DNA from: Bacteroidales bacterium
GTDB taxonomy: Bacteria > Bacteroidota > Bacteroidia > Bacteroidales > GWA2-32-17
NCBI GenBank assembly: GCA_026417155.1
Contig: JAOADU010000044.1
Coordinates: 1 to 34,625, forward strand
Length of the DNA stretch: 34,625 nucleotides
Direction of reading: 5' to 3'
Shown: in pieces, positions 15,816 to 23,967 of the stretch
Layout: each line of letters opens with the position of its first letter
Position numbering within the stretch: position 1 is the first letter of the stretch
Notes under the pieces: model-generated
The model's input: the letters and a program-made list of their open reading frames with translations, nothing else
Databases searched by the model: none
What the model was told of the DNA's origin: nothing
Position numbers and translations under genes: made by a program

Positions 15816-17189
15816 TCAATTAAATTTACGCTTAATAAACCAAATATCATGTATATTAAGACTCAAAGAAAATTGCCAAAAATTTTCCTTAATCAAATTA
15901 TTCTTTAGTGTTCCCCTTGTACCATAAGCCAAAGATATGTTGAGCATTGGAGGTAATTTGCGACGTATCATAGTACTTTCTCCCTTGTCGGTTTTTGTTA
16001 TAGGTAATCCTAATCCAAATGTTATGCCAAATTCGTTAATATGTTGATTGTATATATCCAAATATGTTTGATTAAAATATGTTCCCAAACGATATTGAGT
16101 CATTTTCCAGTACTGATAAAATTTTGTAGGATCGGGAATAAATTGAATACCTGTAGCCACAAAAATACTGTTTTTTAAATTTGTAGGTTCATTATAGAAC
16201 TTTGTATTTGCCCAATGTTGAAATAATACATCGCTCGACCATGTAAATTTATCGTTTGTTTCTATAGTTAAACCAAAGCCTATTGATTGCGGCATTTCAA
16301 TTTTTCCTTTTTTGTTAACAATATTTTGTATGGTGTCTTTCGTAACCGTACCTTGTAAATTTAGAAATTTAGTTATTAATGTAGTTTGTTTCGCTTGTAT
16401 AGGTTCTAACATTTGATATGTTAAGCCTAAAATTACTTTGAGTTTATTTGTTTTTTCGAAATTATTTTCTTGTTGTAAAAGATATTGATATTGTAAACCT
16501 CCCTTAAAAATTACTCCATTAAGAATATTTCTCTCTGTTTTGTTCATATCAAATACATACAATTCTTCAGGAAATGTTGCTGATGTATATTTATCTAACG
16601 AACCAAATACATACGAAGATTTTAATCCTAATGCTAATCGATGGAAATGGTTTGTTTCAATATTTTCATTTTTTTTCGTGTGCTTCTTATGAATTATATC
16701 CCATGCATTGCTCCAAAAAACTTCATTTAATCCGCCATCGCCTTTGTATGTATTCGTTAATTGAAGAGTATCAATAATTTTATTTTCTTGAATTTGATAT
16801 CCAATATTGCTAATAGGTGCAAGTCCTATGTAATTTTTCCAGTTTTTTGTAATCGGAAAACCCATAGCTAAATAATGGATATCGGAATTGGATTGTGAAT
16901 GCGTATAATTCTGACTTTGCAACATAAAGTATCTGCCCATTATAGAAATATCTGTAACAAAGCTTAATGTATCTATTTGAGTGGCTGCAGCAGGATTTTC
17001 ACGATTTATATATCGATTTGATCGTTGTGCAATTGATGTAAAACCCATCGAATATCCTGGTACATAAGAAGGATAAGAAATATCTCCAAGTCCAAATTTT
17101 GAATATGGCGATAAAGTAAATGACTGTGAAATTGCATTTGCCGTAAATGACAAGCTCAGTGCTATGATGAATAATTTTTTATAACACAT
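15816..17189 (-). CDS. FadL/OmpP1-like outer-membrane beta-barrel protein
   Basis: A 457-residue protein with a signal peptide (MCYKKLFIIALSLSFTANAISQS) followed by amphipathic beta-strands throughout. The opening FTLSPYSKFGLGDI, with a later GFTSIAQRSNRYINRENPAA, resembles the FadL/OmpP1-like transport proteins of Bacteroidetes. In these, a conserved N-terminal region precedes a 14-strand barrel. The last strands (FSLSLNIHDIWF) end close to the C-terminus, as expected for a barrel recognised by BAM. The substrate is unknown. It overlaps the coaX 3' end by 11 bases and is followed within two bases by the TPR gene, so the three form one unit. Confidence 0.75.
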   Translation of the reverse strand: MCYKKLFIIALSLSFTANAISQSFTLSPYSKFGLGDISYPSYVPGYSMGFTSIAQRSNRYINRENPAAATQIDTLSFVTDISIMGRYFMLQSQNYTHSQSNSDIHYLAMGFPITKNWKNYIGLAPISNIGYQIQENKIIDTLQLTNTYKGDGGLNEVFWSNAWDIIHKKHTKKNENIETNHFHRLALGLKSSYVFGSLDKYTSATFPEELYVFDMNKTERNILNGVIFKGGLQYQYLLQQENNFEKTNKLKVILGLTYQMLEPIQAKQTTLITKFLNLQGTVTKDTIQNIVNKKGKIEMPQSIGFGLTIETNDKFTWSSDVLFQHWANTKFYNEPTNLKNSIFVATGIQFIPDPTKFYQYWKMTQYRLGTYFNQTYLDIYNQHINEFGITFGLGLPITKTDKGESTMIRRKLPPMLNISLAYGTRGTLKNNLIKENFWQFSLSLNIHDIWFIKRKFN

Positions 17190-17904
17190 TATGTTTCAAT
17201 ATATTAATAAGCCCTTTCAATACAAGATTTTGCTCCACAAAGATGGTATTTTTTAAATATTTTACCAAAAATAAACTATCGCCTCCTGTTAGTATTATTT
17301 TTAAAGGGTTAATTAAACGTTGAGTTATCATGATTTGTTGCTCTATTTCTGAAATAACACCTTGAATAACGCCATATTCTATGCAATCGAGAGTATTTTT
17401 TGCAGGAAATGACTTTAAATCGTTAATTTTTCCTAATGGCAACTTCCCGGTATAGTTGTGCAATGCTTTAAATCGTAGTTGAATGCCCGGCGAAATGGCA
17501 CCTCCAATATATTCATTCTGACAAGTAATAACATCGTAGGTTATGGCAGTGCCTACGCTTATTACAAGACAGTTATTGCCTGGGAAAATATTAGAAGCTC
17601 CTACAACTGCACCTATTCTATCATAACCCAAAGTGTTAGGCGTTTCGTATAAGTTAATAACTGGTAAATTTGTTTGACTATCAATGTTAATATATGTTTT
17701 AGATTTTTGCTTTATTGCTTTCTCCAAATTGTCTGTTAATGCCTGTTTAACATCGCATACAATAGCATGCAATGTATTATCTTTTATTTTCGTAATAAAC
17801 TCTAATACTTCATTTATAGATTGAAATGTATGAAAATACTGAAGTTCTTTTTCAAGACATACTTTTATTAAAGTGTTTCCGATATCAATAGCTAAAAAAG
17901 TCAT
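17179..17904 (-). CDS. coaX: Type III pantothenate kinase
   Basis: Phosphorylates pantothenate as the first step of coenzyme A synthesis, using ATP and a monovalent cation. From ATG 17904 it is 241 residues, within the family's usual 240-260. The N-terminal phosphate motif DIGNT is at 7-11. The pantothenate/nucleotide region PNTLGYDRIG is at about 89-98. The second phosphate motif reads SVGTAITYD at 116-124, and LTGGDS lies near 211. The first position of the second motif is serine (S116), whereas many family members have aspartate (D-x-G-T-A), so activity deserves a check. A TTG start two codons upstream is rejected. The gene heads a minus-strand cluster with the barrel and TPR genes. Confidence 0.92.
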   Translation of the reverse strand: MTFLAIDIGNTLIKVCLEKELQYFHTFQSINEVLEFITKIKDNTLHAIVCDVKQALTDNLEKAIKQKSKTYINIDSQTNLPVINLYETPNTLGYDRIGAVVGASNIFPGNNCLVISVGTAITYDVITCQNEYIGGAISPGIQLRFKALHNYTGKLPLGKINDLKSFPAKNTLDCIEYGVIQGVISEIEQQIMITQRLINPLKIILTGGDSLFLVKYLKNTIFVEQNLVLKGLINILKHNVL

Positions 17905-17982
17905 TGCCAAATACTACAATCATTCAGAAAAAAATGCTTATCTTCATGGTTTGAATTAATGCTGTAAAGGTATCAAAATTTT

Positions 17983-20900
17983 ATGAACAATATGCCTAAA
18001 AAAATTATCATTGTTGAAGATGATAAATTGCTATTAACAATTTTTACCTTATATATCAAAGATCTTGGTCATGAGCTTGTTGGAGCTTTTACAAATGCCG
18101 AAGACGCCATAGAATGCTTAAAAAAGCAAAAAGCCGATGTTGTATTACTCGATATTCAATTGCCCGATGGAATGAATGGCATTGACGCTTCGAAAATTAT
18201 TTACCTTGAATACAATACTCCTATTATTTACATTTCAAGTTATACCGATGAATTTAATACCTCAGCATCATTAAATTATGGAATATTTGGATATTTAGTA
18301 AAACCTATAGATAAATTTAATTTATCGGTTACCATAGATCTTGTATGTTGGAGACATCAGTACGAACAACACCGCAAATTAAGTGAGCAAGTTCTCAGTC
18401 AAATACAACATGGTGTACTTACATTGACTTTTGGAGGAAAAATTTTATACTCTAACGATGCAGCTCAACTAATGTTTAGCAAAAAACAAAGCAATGAAGA
18501 TTTTTTCCCCAATTGGCTTCAAATAGATACCGAAAAATTTATAGACGAAATAAGCGATGAGGTAATTAGTAAAGGATTTATTTCAAGAACATTTAAAGTA
18601 AAAATCGGCGAAAATATTAAAATATTCCAAACCAATTTTTCATTGCTGTTTGACGAAATAAATGAACCATTTGGAATAGCTGCATTTGTAAGCGAAATAA
18701 CTGAGTTGGCTCAGCTTTCCGACGGATTTATTAAGATAGGTTCTATCCACACATCGCTTATTAACAATATAAATCAATTATTATTAGTATTTGATACCAA
18801 CAATTCCTTATTGTTTTCGAATCCTTTGGCACAAAAATATTTTCAAACTCGTTTCGATATTCAACTATCTGAAAATTTATCTATTGAGCAAATACTTTTT
18901 TTTCTGCCTATTAGTGAAATTCACAGCTTACTTAAAAATGTTTACGCAGGTGTATATCATCATACGGAACGAATTATTGAAAAAAACAATAAAAGAATAT
19001 ATCTTCAACTAAATTGGATTCCTGTAGAATTAGAAAAACAGATTCTTTATAGTTTAATACTAATTAACGATATTACTCCCTACCGAGAATTAGAACAAGA
19101 ACTTGATGAAATTAAAAGCGAGCTAAGACCAATCTTCGACAGCAGTATTCAGCGATTTTATTTAGTTGATTTAAACTTAAAAATTATTTCTTTCAATAAG
19201 TCTGCTAAGGATATTATTTATAAAGAATTTAACCGACCACTTAAAAAAGGCGACTATGCATTAGATCTTATTCCACAAGAAGAAAGAAAAAAATTCTTTC
19301 TTACACAATTTGAATTGGCTAAAGCTGGACATAGTGTTTCGTTTAAAGAATCCTATCCATTAAAAAACGAGATAAGATGGAATGAAACCCATTTAGATCC
19401 AGTAATTGACGATAGAGGCGAAATAAAAAGAATTCTTATTTGGACACTCGATATTACTGAAAAAGAAAAATATTTGCATGACTTAAAAGAAAGTCAGGAG
19501 CGGTATGAACTTATTGCCAGAGGAGGTAATGATGGAATTTTCGACTGGGATATGATAAACAATACGGTTTATTTATCACCTCGCTGGAAAGCCTTATTAG
19601 GTTATGAAGACTATGAATTAAAAAATGAATTTGGAGTTAGAGATTCGTTAATTCATCCCGAAGACAAAGAAAAAGCACAAAAAATTTTAATCGACTACTT
19701 AGAAGGCAAATCGCCCATATATGAAAACGAATTTCGATTGAAGCACAAACGCGGGTATTATATTTGGGTAATAGAACGAGGCGAAATATTAAAAGATGAA
19801 CATGGAAATAAAATTCGTTTTGCAGGTTCAATTACCGATATCACACGATTGAAAAAAACTGAAGACGAACTGCTAAAACTAAATCAAACCTTACTCGACG
19901 AGCGAAAAATGTTTATGCAAGGAAGTGTTGTAATTACTCGAATAAAAGCTGATGAAAGCAAAAAATTTATTTATATTTCAGAAAATGTAAAAGATGTGCT
20001 TGGTTTTTCTGTCGAAGAATTTACACAAGGTAAAATTACATACGACTCACTAATTCACAAAGAAGACCTTGAGATGCATCAAAAAGAAAGAGAAGATGCT
20101 ATTAGTAAAAATGTTCATCAAATATCATTTACACCCTATCGCATGAAGCGAAAAGATGGCACATATATTTGGGTAAAAGATTTTTCTACGTTAGTAATCA
20201 ATTCCGATGGCACAACCGATATTTTAGGATATTTCATTGACATTAGCGAACAAAAACGATCGGAAGAAGAACTTATCAATTCAAACAAGCGATTTATTGC
20301 ATTATTTGAAGAAGCTAGCGATGCCATTCTACTATTAGATGAACTAAAAATTATTGATGCAAATAAAAATGCTGAATTATTATTCGGATATTCAAAAGAT
20401 CAACTGAAAACTATGGATATATTAGGCTTATCGCCAACTCTACAACCCAATAAAGAAAACAGCCTCGATAGATTCAACAGAAAAATATTAAATGCCATGA
20501 CTGGTACTACTAAAGCATTTTATTGGCAATTCTTAAACGCTCAACAAAAAATTGTAGATACAGAAATTGGCATTAGCCCTATTGTTGTTAATAATAAACG
20601 CATCATTTATCAAGCCATTATTCGCAATATTACGGATAGAAAAAAATTAGAAAACATTTTAAAAGAAAATGAGCGAAAGTTCAAAAATTTGTTAGAATCA
20701 ATACCCGATTTATTATTCATTCTCGACAAAACAAATACATATATATATTTTAAACCCGATAAGGACAAAGTTTTCGACATTCCGCACGATAAAGTTATTG
20801 GCAAAAAAGTTAGCGATTTCTTCACTGGCGATATCTTAGAGCGATATCTTCAATGTATTGATACTTGCAGAAAAACAAAGCAAATTACAACCATAAATTA

Positions 20901-21006
20901 TTCCATCAATTCACCAATAGGAATGAGAAAATTTGAAGCAAGATTATCATTATTAAACGAAAATGAAATATTACAAGTAGTTAGAGATTTAGGACCTGCC
21001 GAGTAG
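17983..21006 (+). CDS. Receiver domain plus multiple PAS domains, no visible output domain
   Basis: A 1007-residue cytoplasmic sensory protein. The N-terminal receiver domain (about 6-125) has the acidic pair D13-D14, phospho-acceptor D57 in LLDIQLPDG, and a KP pair near 107. It is followed by about seven PAS-type units. Those at roughly 136-245, 253-365 and 380-490 are divergent. Clearer ones lie at 507-632 (PAS_3-like, HPEDKEKA and GYYIWV), 640-757 (RKDGTYIWVKDF), 770-886 (ASDAILLLDELKIIDANKNAELLFGY) and 899-1007. The joins ITDITRLKK, DISEQKRSEEE and NITDRKKLE are typical PAS-to-helix linkers. No HisKA, HATPase, GGDEF, EAL, HTH or phosphatase motif is present. The frame stops within about ten residues of where such a domain would begin, overlapping the convergent gene by 26 bases. 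It may be a phosphorelay scaffold or a truncated hybrid kinase. Confidence 0.85.
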   Translation: MNNMPKKIIIVEDDKLLLTIFTLYIKDLGHELVGAFTNAEDAIECLKKQKADVVLLDIQLPDGMNGIDASKIIYLEYNTPIIYISSYTDEFNTSASLNYGIFGYLVKPIDKFNLSVTIDLVCWRHQYEQHRKLSEQVLSQIQHGVLTLTFGGKILYSNDAAQLMFSKKQSNEDFFPNWLQIDTEKFIDEISDEVISKGFISRTFKVKIGENIKIFQTNFSLLFDEINEPFGIAAFVSEITELAQLSDGFIKIGSIHTSLINNINQLLLVFDTNNSLLFSNPLAQKYFQTRFDIQLSENLSIEQILFFLPISEIHSLLKNVYAGVYHHTERIIEKNNKRIYLQLNWIPVELEKQILYSLILINDITPYRELEQELDEIKSELRPIFDSSIQRFYLVDLNLKIISFNKSAKDIIYKEFNRPLKKGDYALDLIPQEERKKFFLTQFELAKAGHSVSFKESYPLKNEIRWNETHLDPVIDDRGEIKRILIWTLDITEKEKYLHDLKESQERYELIARGGNDGIFDWDMINNTVYLSPRWKALLGYEDYELKNEFGVRDSLIHPEDKEKAQKILIDYLEGKSPIYENEFRLKHKRGYYIWVIERGEILKDEHGNKIRFAGSITDITRLKKTEDELLKLNQTLLDERKMFMQGSVVITRIKADESKKFIYISENVKDVLGFSVEEFTQGKITYDSLIHKEDLEMHQKEREDAISKNVHQISFTPYRMKRKDGTYIWVKDFSTLVINSDGTTDILGYFIDISEQKRSEEELINSNKRFIALFEEASDAILLLDELKIIDANKNAELLFGYSKDQLKTMDILGLSPTLQPNKENSLDRFNRKILNAMTGTTKAFYWQFLNAQQKIVDTEIGISPIVVNNKRIIYQAIIRNITDRKKLENILKENERKFKNLLESIPDLLFILDKTNTYIYFKPDKDKVFDIPHDKVIGKKVSDFFTGDILERYLQCIDTCRKTKQITTINYSINSPIGMRKFEARLSLLNENEILQVVRDLGPAE

Positions 21007-21985
21007 TTTTTTTTGTAAATAAACGGTACCCACCAATAATATCAACTCGCCCAAACATATGTTCTAAACTTATGTAATTGTTTAACGGATATTGATAAAA
21101 ATCGGTTATTCCTGCTAAAATGAAAAAAAATCTGTTTTTGCTGTATGTAGCTGCTAATCGGACATTTACAGCACCTCCTGTTGTTGAATGTGGATAAAGT
21201 TTGCCAGGCATACTTATTATTTCTTTATATTGTAATTGTGTTGCTAAGCCAAAGATAAAGCCAAAATGCAGAATCCAATTTTTACGTTTCCAATTGTATA
21301 AATACCCTCCTTGCAAACCAACTAGTAGTGTATTAAACTTTGTAATGCGAAAATCGCTTTTAAAAATAGAGTCGAGCAATTTGGAAGTTAATGATGAATC
21401 GGCCCCTAGAAAAAAAACATTAAACTTCCCACCTAAAACCCAAGTTCCTGCCGACTTTTTTTGAATTTCAGATGCCGAGAATACCGATTTTGCCGAAAAC
21501 TTATCGGGTTTTAATACACGAAATAAACTTCCACCAATTTGAGCCATTGCAACATCGGGACGTATGTATACTGTATTGCTATCGTTGGTAATGTAATGAC
21601 TTTCTGAATAAAAGCCCTGATAATACTGAAAAAATAAATCTATCAAATAATTTCTGGGGTATAAATGCGATTGAATATCTATTTTATTAGTTTTTCCGAA
21701 TAAGCTTTCGTCTTTTTTTCCATACGAAGCAATTCCAACTGACAAGTCAATCCAACGATAAGTAGCACCTATTCCCCATGATCCCCATGAATTAGGTATA
21801 TACTGTAACCTATAATTTTTTTCTTTGTTAAAATATTCTATTCGATTGTTCTTATTTATCCAATATGAATAAAAAGTTCCTTGATATGGATAAAACGCAA
21901 TGAAATTTGTATCTATAGGAGTGGAATAACAAAAATGAACGCAACATGTAAGAAAAGCAAAATACGAAGATAAACTCTTAATCAT
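20981..21985 (-). CDS. DUF4421-like outer-membrane barrel protein
   Basis: A 334-residue protein with an N-terminal signal (hydrophobic run ending near CYSTP) and alternating beta-strands. The order of features fits the Bacteroidetes DUF4421 family: an early DTNFIAFYPYQG, then YIPNSWGSWGIGATYRWIDL, then KIDIQSHLYPRNYLIDLFFQ with YYQGFY, then the QKKSAGTWVLGG segment. Function is unknown, presumably in the outer membrane. Its ATG overlaps the stop of the upstream M1 peptidase gene by one base (TAATG), so the two are translationally coupled. Its last 26 bases overlap the 3' end of the REC-PAS gene on the other strand. Confidence 0.76.
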   Translation of the reverse strand: MIKSLSSYFAFLTCCVHFCYSTPIDTNFIAFYPYQGTFYSYWINKNNRIEYFNKEKNYRLQYIPNSWGSWGIGATYRWIDLSVGIASYGKKDESLFGKTNKIDIQSHLYPRNYLIDLFFQYYQGFYSESHYITNDSNTVYIRPDVAMAQIGGSLFRVLKPDKFSAKSVFSASEIQKKSAGTWVLGGKFNVFFLGADSSLTSKLLDSIFKSDFRITKFNTLLVGLQGGYLYNWKRKNWILHFGFIFGLATQLQYKEIISMPGKLYPHSTTGGAVNVRLAATYSKNRFFFILAGITDFYQYPLNNYISLEHMFGRVDIIGGYRLFTKKTTRQVLNL

Positions 21986-23883
21986 TATGTCTTTACAAAT
22001 TTATACGTATGCAAATTTACTTTTAAAAAGTAAACACCTTTTGATAAATGTTGCAAATCTATACTGAATAATTCCGGATTGTATTTAATTGGTATTATTT
22101 TCCCATAAATATCTGACAAAGTAATCTGCGTAATGGGTTTGTTCGTTTGAATAAATAATACATCTTGTACAGGATTAGGATATAATATAATATTTTGATA
22201 TTCTTGCAAATTATCAACCTTGGTTATTGTTCCTACTTTGTTTACAATATAATTTTTTGGATCAATTGATACGGATATAATGTTTTCGGGAAAAAATACC
22301 TTTGCAATCACATTATTCTGCGTTGGTTCCATTCGAATATTCATATCGGTTCCATTTGAAGAGAATTGAATATCTACAGGATTGTGAAAAAAAGGTGTAA
22401 TGTTGGGAGCCGATGCTTGCTGCGAAAAAATAAATGTTAGCGTGTCGTTCGATTGTTGGTAAACTAATGAATATGTAGGATATCCTTCGCCATAAAACCA
22501 TTCATCGAAAAATTGCTGAAAGTTGATGCCCGTATAAGTTGTGGCAAAATTTTTAAAGTCTTCGGCAGTTGCTGTACTAAAAGCATATTGTTGTAAAAAT
22601 GCTTTTAGCATATTAAAAAACATTATATCGTTGTTTATTATGTATCTAATAGTATGTATTATTGCCGCACCCTTTTCGTATGTAAGACGATAGTCGAAAA
22701 TACGATTTTCGTTGTAAATATCAGAAAATGGCACATATACGCTTCCGTTGGGCTGAGCCATTACGTCATTATGCACATTATTCATCCATTGATCGGCTTC
22801 AGTTTGCGACAATAAATGCTGTGCACCTAAGTAATATGTATATGTAGCAAACCCTTCATTTATCCAAATATCTTGCCATGTAGCACATGTTACATAATCG
22901 CCAAACCACTGATGCCCGAGTTCGTGAATAACTAACTCAAAATCGAAATACGACAATGTAGTCATAGTTTGATGTTCCATGCCTCCACCAATTGGAGCTG
23001 TACAGTGTCCATATTTTTCGCTGTGAAAAGGATATAAACCGTATAATTCCGATAATAATTCAATGAAGTTCTTTGTATTATTTATTTGATTTTGAAAATA
23101 AGGCAAGTAACCAGGATTATCGTAAATATAATTCTGAATATAAATGGAATCATTATAACCTATCGGTTTTGCATATTGAATATATTCTTGATATTCGCTG
23201 ATTGTAAAGCTAAGCAAATAGTATGCAATAGGATAGTATGTTTTCCATTCATAACGAACCTTGTTTCCCGGAAGTGTTGTAATTTTGGTTAATAATCCAT
23301 TCGAACCCGCTTTTAAATTGTTTGTACAGGTGATAAACACATATGCCGAATCGGCTTTATCGGTTAAAACTTGTTTGCAAGGAAACCAGTCCATGGCATG
23401 ATACGATTCGCTTAACGTCCAAGTTACTTTTTTTTGCCAACTTGGCGACTGTCCGTTTTTTATTCCGGTGCCGGCAGATGTCCCTTTATAATAGACTGTT
23501 GCCGTAAAATATTGATTGACAGGAATAGGCTGAGCCGGAAAAGCATGTATTTCATGATTTGAAAATGTGTATGTAACTTGTACACCATCAATCGTAACCG
23601 AATCAACGGTTAGCGAAGAATGTAATTGTAATAAAAGTTCAGACAAAGGCTGATTAACTACTTTTGCTTTAATACTAGTTTTTCCACTGATGGCTTTGTT
23701 TAGGTTTGTCGCTTCAATATCAATAAAATAAAAGGACACATCATAATTGTTTAGCAAATTGTTTTTTTCTGATTTCGAAATGAAACTATGATAATGGCTT
23801 TTCTCTTGTTCAATATGTGTTGATAATTGTGATTGAGAAGTTAAAAATAAAAACACAAAAAGAAAAAACAATATCGTTTTCAT
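21985..23883 (-). CDS. M1-family zinc metallopeptidase with T9SS C-terminal sorting domain
   Basis: A secreted aminopeptidase-type gluzincin, 632 residues from ATG 23883; an ATG at 23904 is the alternative. The signal peptide is MKTILFFLFVFLFLTSQSQ. The substrate-binding motif reads GGGMEHQTMT, the zinc site is HELGH at 320-324, and the third ligand is E343 in NEGFATY, giving the M1 spacing HEXXH-x18-E. A later YEKGAAIIHTIRY segment carries the usual catalytic-tyrosine region. The last 75 or so residues form a type A T9SS sorting domain: NIILYPNPVQDVLFIQ, ITLSDIYGKII and LSKGVYFLKV. The enzyme is therefore probably exported through Sec and then T9SS to the surface or medium. It is coupled to the DUF4421-like gene downstream. 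Confidence 0.92.
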   Translation of the reverse strand: MKTILFFLFVFLFLTSQSQLSTHIEQEKSHYHSFISKSEKNNLLNNYDVSFYFIDIEATNLNKAISGKTSIKAKVVNQPLSELLLQLHSSLTVDSVTIDGVQVTYTFSNHEIHAFPAQPIPVNQYFTATVYYKGTSAGTGIKNGQSPSWQKKVTWTLSESYHAMDWFPCKQVLTDKADSAYVFITCTNNLKAGSNGLLTKITTLPGNKVRYEWKTYYPIAYYLLSFTISEYQEYIQYAKPIGYNDSIYIQNYIYDNPGYLPYFQNQINNTKNFIELLSELYGLYPFHSEKYGHCTAPIGGGMEHQTMTTLSYFDFELVIHELGHQWFGDYVTCATWQDIWINEGFATYTYYLGAQHLLSQTEADQWMNNVHNDVMAQPNGSVYVPFSDIYNENRIFDYRLTYEKGAAIIHTIRYIINNDIMFFNMLKAFLQQYAFSTATAEDFKNFATTYTGINFQQFFDEWFYGEGYPTYSLVYQQSNDTLTFIFSQQASAPNITPFFHNPVDIQFSSNGTDMNIRMEPTQNNVIAKVFFPENIISVSIDPKNYIVNKVGTITKVDNLQEYQNIILYPNPVQDVLFIQTNKPITQITLSDIYGKIIPIKYNPELFSIDLQHLSKGVYFLKVNLHTYKFVKT

Positions 23884-23967
23884 ACTAAATAAGGTATTTT
23901 GCATTATTTGAACGTAGAATATTTTTAAATGAAAGACAATAAAAATGTTATTTTAGTTGCATTAATT

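Follow-up and report, generated by a model that had tools for sequence, protein, structure and literature searches.

Domain organization of the REC-PAS protein

The window, by which we mean the whole analysed stretch of 34,625 nucleotides, carries an open reading frame that starts with ATG, runs without internal stops, and encodes a receiver (REC) followed by seven PAS domains. Divergent from it lies coaX, and at its 3′ end it runs into a convergent gene (Table 1).

Table 1. Features of the REC-(PAS)7 locus, in window coordinates.
Feature	Coordinates	Strand	Basis
coaX (type III pantothenate kinase), divergent neighbour	17179..17910	-	Pfam Pan_kinase, synteny
Intergenic region of 72 bases separating coaX from the REC-PAS gene	17911..17982	.	
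REC-(PAS)7 protein, 1007 aa, recognised output domain absent	17983..21006	+	ORF, Pfam
Receiver (REC), residues 8-115	18004..18327	+	Pfam Response_reg, 78.4 bits (cut-off 30.2)
Phospho-acceptor D57 codon	18151..18153	+	D57 in 39/39 clade receivers compared
PAS1, residues 129-246, divergent	18367..18720	+	Piecewise Pfam scan, profile-profile comparison
PAS2, residues 247-372, divergent	18721..19098	+	Piecewise Pfam scan, profile-profile comparison
PAS3, residues 377-496, PAS_4 type	19111..19470	+	Pfam
PAS4, residues 502-626, PAS_3 type	19486..19860	+	Pfam
PAS5, residues 634-759, PAS_3 type, nearest to PAS4	19882..20259	+	Pfam, profile comparison
PAS6, residues 763-889, PAS_9/PAS_8 type	20269..20649	+	Pfam
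PAS7, residues 890-1004, terminal PAS	20650..20994	+	Pfam; matches in long clade members
Tail-to-tail overlap of 26 bases with the convergent DUF4421 gene (ORF 20981..21985)	20981..21006	.	ORF list, Pfam

Response_reg and PAS families were the only Pfam families above cut-off in the protein. When scanned piecewise, PAS3–PAS7 each exceeded a Pfam cut-off; PAS1 and PAS2 stayed below (best PAS E 0.1 and 0.082) and were assigned by profile-profile comparison, which linked PAS1 to PAS2, PAS3, PAS6 and PAS7 at 89–92% and PAS2 to PAS3 at 97%. PAS4 and PAS5 formed a pair of their own (99%), several PAS pairs lacked a direct profile link (PAS1–PAS4 and PAS5–PAS7, for example), and the receiver matched no PAS domain at more than 10%. 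Pfam searches at E values up to 1 matched neither HisKA nor HATPase nor any further catalytic family anywhere in the protein, and no GGDEF, DNA-binding or LytTR family; among the best 25 of 107 NCBIfam families, all but the PAS domain model fell far under their cut-offs. A cryptic catalytic domain between the PAS cores is ruled out, as both a Pfam match and the space for one are absent: within the domain limits that we set, the seven cores occupy residues 129–1004 of 1007. Structure prediction from a two-row alignment returned a mean pLDDT of 29.4.

These results bear out much of a sequence-only reading of this DNA, which had described a receiver with phospho-acceptor D57 and about seven PAS domains, lacking an output domain and stopping directly after a PAS core. 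D57 is accompanied by E12/D13/D14, S85 and K107, the PAS7 core reaches to within three residues of the end, and the domain search proposed there, residues 130–500 included, returned PAS families above cut-off and no catalytic domain. The make-up is that of an output-less REC-(PAS)n protein: an N-terminal receiver containing the acidic pocket along with D57, T/S and K, at least one PAS domain behind it (seven here, five via Pfam and two via profile comparison), and no known output domain in Pfam or NCBIfam. It lacks the HisKA (or equivalent) and HATPase domains of a hybrid sensor kinase and the LytTR DNA-binding domain of a REC-LytTR regulator, and it extends beyond the lone receiver of a single-domain response regulator.

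Elsewhere in the window, positions 21985–23904 encode an M1 peptidase that carries a Por_Secre_tail sorting domain and is predicted to be a cargo of type IX secretion; by eye, the same genome also holds a PorX-like REC protein (L008). A second PAS-rich frame of this genome (contig C63, L002 874-2655, minus strand) likewise shows no output domain by eye; it has hydrophobic N-terminal segments, several PAS-like repeats and a PAS end, and no HATPase match was found there.

The C-terminal end is conserved

The window's GTDB family is represented by ten genomes, including the window's own. A full-length match is present in nine and absent from the remaining one, which is 74% complete. The eight full-length relatives measure 1002–1041 aa, and all eight stop 2–10 residues past the same VRD motif (VRI in L029), so the conservation of the C-terminus that the sequence-only reading had proposed as a check is borne out. 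In the window protein, the VVRD motif occupies residues 999–1002 and the stop follows five residues later. Exceptions occur beyond the family. L030 and L071 lack a terminal VRD. L072 of genome G165, the receiver of which is cut off by the contig end, continues for about 33 charged, helical-looking residues past an ARD motif, the longest tail seen. As a query, the window PAS7 retrieved the last PAS domain of 10/10 other long clade members tested at 55–98 bits; the next match was a kinase at 14 bits.

Purifying selection acts on the window gene. With synonymous sites almost saturated, pN/pS was 0.19 and 0.29 against two congeners (L022 and L023, respectively) and was low up to PAS7. PAS3–PAS5 are among the most constrained domains (pN 0.06–0.08 against L022), PAS4 having the lowest pN of all eight; PAS1 and PAS2 are the least constrained (pN 0.26–0.40).

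These observations bear on whether the window gene is a recent truncation, a pseudogene or an assembly artefact, as might be thought from its stop right after a PAS core and its overlap with the convergent gene. The sequence-only reading had taken that overlap to fit loss of the 3′ part. The overlap with the DUF4421 gene measures 26 bases in the window, against 18 and 11 bases in the two relatives nearest to it. Most other long relatives have a different convergent neighbour and zero overlap, and the shared terminal motif occurs without it; the overlap is therefore uninformative on loss, and we rejected it as a sign of truncation. The same end in independent genomes already refutes recent truncation, and the matching terminal PAS, the low pN/pS and the open frame count against it as well, so that we regard it as exceedingly improbable. 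The protein is thus not a recently truncated kinase, and the suggestion that the window gene itself had shed a 3′ kinase half is unsupported; what may survive of it is one such loss long ago, where the clade began, weighed below.

The receiver defines a single clade

In a first tree, 39 receivers were separated from 28 others by a branch with 100/99 support (L019, the second piece of a gene in G042, was excluded). Adding 18 clade receivers gave a larger tree in which 57, from 57 genomes, form one group against 32 others, again at 100/99; these outsiders comprise the 22 nearest by profile and ten more, and include near kinases and LytTR-type regulators. A receiver profile built from clade members matched 97 of 393 sampled genomes of the window's order at E 1e-29. 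The scores were bimodal: 52 places, one per genome, scored 146–206 bits and the remainder at most 135 bits, the 52 omitting G002 and G169, the degenerate receivers of which fall under the threshold. A profile built from long members only left a smaller gap (clade 125–203 bits, nearest others 95–118 bits), REC-only and short forms scoring 125–172 bits. The receiver of L071 also falls below the Pfam cut-off (25.4 vs 30.2).

Among 295 genomes of the class, the receiver profile reached at least 146 bits in two, which belong to the window's order; beyond that order, class hits scored at most 140 bits and were mostly frames of about 250 aa, and frames of that length resembling REC-LytTR proteins occurred among the order and class matches alike. 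A whole-protein search of 395 genomes matched only the window's own (E 1e-60). The receiver clade is so far restricted to the window's order.

The nearest receivers outside the clade reside partly in REC-(PAS)-HisKA-HATPase kinases. HATPase was found in all six long second-tier proteins scanned from the 14 in the tree, where the label kinase denotes a length above 400 aa. REC-LytTR-type regulators occupy the same region of the tree (one scanned).

Linkage to coaX

coaX is the divergent neighbour of 48 of the 57 clade members, counting L030 of genome G056, where an AAA-type ORF (AAA_35; L030 5022-6299) codirectional with the REC-PAS gene lies in between. It was not seen in the flanks read of the other nine, some of which lie near a contig end, and a fixed linkage was accordingly rejected. 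Viewed from coaX, a clade receiver was present in 16 of 100 upstream stretches, chosen for family spread and high coaX scores, several of them cut by contig ends. The position upstream of coaX holds a receiver alone in some genomes (for example L136, 131 aa), a receiver with about one PAS domain in L149 and L178, and one with about two in L171 and L207. In G073, G085 and G211, coaX lies elsewhere with 4–5 kb of upstream sequence free of such a receiver, and in G009, of the window's family and 74% complete, the 1047 bases upstream of coaX contain no REC-PAS gene. A relevant paper on a coaX-linked regulator was not found in the literature search.

Neighbourhoods of the relatives were compared by ORF clustering and by viewing start sequences. 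Among the long relatives, a shared set of gene families commonly comes after coaX; by eye, we take these to be an outer-membrane protein, a TPR protein, LptC, CorC and PpiD. No histidine kinase or HPt was found among the nine window neighbours scanned, and an adjacent kinase partner is unsupported. Two further neighbours were noted by eye. In both genomes of family f90, a gene resembling a universal stress protein lies 13–18 bases downstream of the eight-PAS gene (L067 10408-11241; L068 3853-4680), suggesting an operon; in G165, a frame two genes past the REC-PAS gene (L072 3-2336, +) ends in an apparent SpoIIE/PP2C-type phosphatase domain.

A series of PAS numbers on one receiver

Combining length and Pfam matches, we counted no PAS domain in 23 of the 57 members, one in eight, two in four, five in two, six in two, seven in 15 and eight in two; one member (L236), the frame of which runs into N, was left unassigned. 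The REC-only status of the 23 rests on length, with two scanned, and one seven-PAS assignment is inferred from two unjoined contig pieces of a single G331 gene (L073 and L070). Scans of 29 clade members, comprising 27 of the 33 with known PAS domains and two of the 23 REC-only forms, revealed no output domain; only receiver, PAS or PAS-like sensor families rose above the Pfam cut-offs, one of these scans having listed families by member count. Diguanyl_cycl_sensor exceeded its cut-off in L147 and L235, overlapping PAS domains, and was classed as sensor and not output. No scanned member has a LytTR domain, and the 11 members of alignment A1 matched no HisKA, HATPase, GGDEF or DNA-binding family at E 0.001. 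The sequence-only reading had asked whether homologues normally carry a kinase domain: clade members scanned do not, and kinases appear only among the nearest receivers outside.

The receiver-proximal PAS domain matches across families with one (f32, f77, f85, f89), two (f30), five (f34), seven (f48, f65) and eight (f90) PAS domains, at about 20–105 bits between families. L141, with space for one PAS, gave no Pfam PAS match, yet matches the proximal PAS of others; the single PAS of the f11 family (L223, L245) matches them weakly, at 13.5 bits at most. The window PAS1 matches the second PAS domain of L235 and L030, not the first, which suggests that the window's family lacks the proximal PAS. 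The terminal PAS, in turn, is common to the long forms. Taken together, the proximal and terminal matches indicate that domains were gained or lost inside the array too, and not merely cut from its end.

Mapped on the trees, PAS number changed ten times (39 rows) or eight times (56 counted rows); the inner forks are weak and the direction of change is unreadable. The 23 REC-only forms group together, with the long-branched six-PAS L071 inside (88/63), and PAS-bearing forms sit at the unresolved basal fork of the clade. What is new in these findings is that one orthologous receiver comes with such a series of PAS numbers, a setting in which one can ask how PAS domains contribute to a response regulator and whether output needs anything beyond the receiver.

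Conservation of the receiver surface

Among the 39 clade receivers compared, D14, D57, K107 and P108 are invariant, T or S stands at position 85 in 38, and an acidic residue stands at position 13 in 37, with lysine in L024 and L071. L024 (4434-7442, genome G002) is a long-branched REC-PAS7 protein of the window's genus in which this lysine replaces D13, and its receiver is possibly phosphorylation-independent. Relative to other receivers, clade entropy was lowest at α1 (1.46 vs 2.73 bits) and β5 (0.90 vs 2.60 bits), followed by β4, with little difference at α4; the outgroup pools several paralogous families, which inflates its entropy. The α1 and β5–α5 region is the kinase docking site on receivers, and its low entropy suggests that the partner may have stayed the same while PAS number changed.

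A model for the REC-PAS clade

In the reading that we propose, and to which we assign a probability of roughly two in three, the window protein functions as a response regulator whose receiver exerts its effect by contacting other proteins, and the PAS stack serves as input and as a scaffold for dimerisation. D57 would receive its phosphate from a histidine kinase or hybrid kinase whose gene lies elsewhere; phosphorylation would alter the receiver surface and dimerisation; and the effect would be relayed by protein-protein contact, for instance by modulating a kinase or by serving as a phospho-intermediate. The PAS stack would supply ligand or redox input and a scaffold for the dimer and would not be the core of the function, since orthologues of the same receiver exist with zero PAS domains. 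The absence of an output domain supports the earlier suggestion that the phospho-acceptor and PAS bundle act on something else. Given the lysine in place of D13 in L024 and L071, phosphorylation may not be needed everywhere. On a broader reading, about which we are evenly divided, a single orthologous receiver, as a rule at the same chromosomal position, has been reshaped several times, its forms ranging from a CheY-like switch without PAS domains to an array of eight, with the kinase-docking face kept and an output domain never carried in the members scanned; the PAS array would then tune, and not provide, the output, and the clade would present a natural gradation of sensory-domain dosage over a constant signalling core.

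A different account concerns origin and is compatible with a protein-contact mechanism: an ancient REC-(PAS)n-HisKA-HATPase kinase may have shed its catalytic half in a single event that preceded diversification of the clade, with some lineages later trimmed to the receiver only. This is possible because the nearest outside receivers include the N-terminal receivers of such kinases, with HATPase in every long one scanned, and it agrees with PAS-bearing forms at the basal fork, the grouping of REC-only forms, and a receiver-proximal PAS shared by most REC+1 forms, by the +2, +5 and +8 families and by two +7 families. REC-LytTR-type regulators, however, are found in that region of the tree as well, the weak inner forks give no direction, and the queried PAS domains (among those of the window protein, PAS1 and PAS7) match the ten kinases of the set poorly, at no more than 14 bits among the hits listed. 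We hold such an origin to be a tentative alternative, somewhat on the doubtful side.

Two further accounts concern the mechanism. The protein could be a phosphorelay intermediate or phosphate sink, as Spo0F is, its PAS domains tuning phosphate flow. The REC-only orthologues are compatible with this, the conserved α1/β5 face provides the docking site for kinases and phosphotransfer domains, and output-less regulators in phosphorelays have been described (PMC12471899); the lack of any histidine kinase or HPt among the nine scanned neighbours weighs against it, and we think it unlikely. Alternatively, the receiver could be a docking module only, in a phosphorylation-independent scaffold in which the PAS bundle recruits partners. 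The substitution of D13 in two of 39 receivers and the strong constraint on PAS3–PAS5 point in this direction, but the near-universal retention of the phosphorylation residues (D57, D14 and K107 in every receiver compared, T/S85 in all but one) and the REC-only members, which keep the receiver alone, make it less likely still.

Comparison with known systems

N-terminal-receiver kinases of the REC-(PAS)n-HisKA-HATPase type are among the bearers of the nearest receivers and, in the PAS-bearing ones scanned, share the order REC then PAS; the window protein differs in lacking HisKA and HATPase, and its queried PAS domains are not closely related to theirs. REC-LytTR regulators are likewise among the nearest by receiver (one scanned), but LytTR is absent from every scanned member of the window clade.

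Single-domain response regulators, such as CheY and DivK, share with the window clade an intact receiver chemistry and an output that must be protein-protein interaction, and, judged by length, 23 of its 57 members consist of REC only; the window member differs in its seven PAS domains. MrrA is a single-domain response regulator as well (PMC5964349), and output-less single-domain regulators are known (PMC12471899).

A PAS-bearing output-less regulator of Bacteroidetes was not found in the literature searched, a set that leaves most subscription papers outside. The closest described counterpart is archaeal: according to a 2018 survey, REC-(PAS)n and REC-PAS-GAF regulators without an output domain are a numerous class in archaea, none had been studied experimentally and their partners were unknown; the survey proposes dimerisation and protein-protein interaction as output, and envisages that phosphorylation or ligand binding induces dimerisation or a change of conformation (PMC5847659). 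The window protein resembles that class in its N-terminal receiver, at least one PAS domain and no obvious output. The window clade differs in being bacterial, confined so far to one GTDB order and usually beside coaX, and in spanning forms from REC-only members to arrays of up to eight PAS domains.
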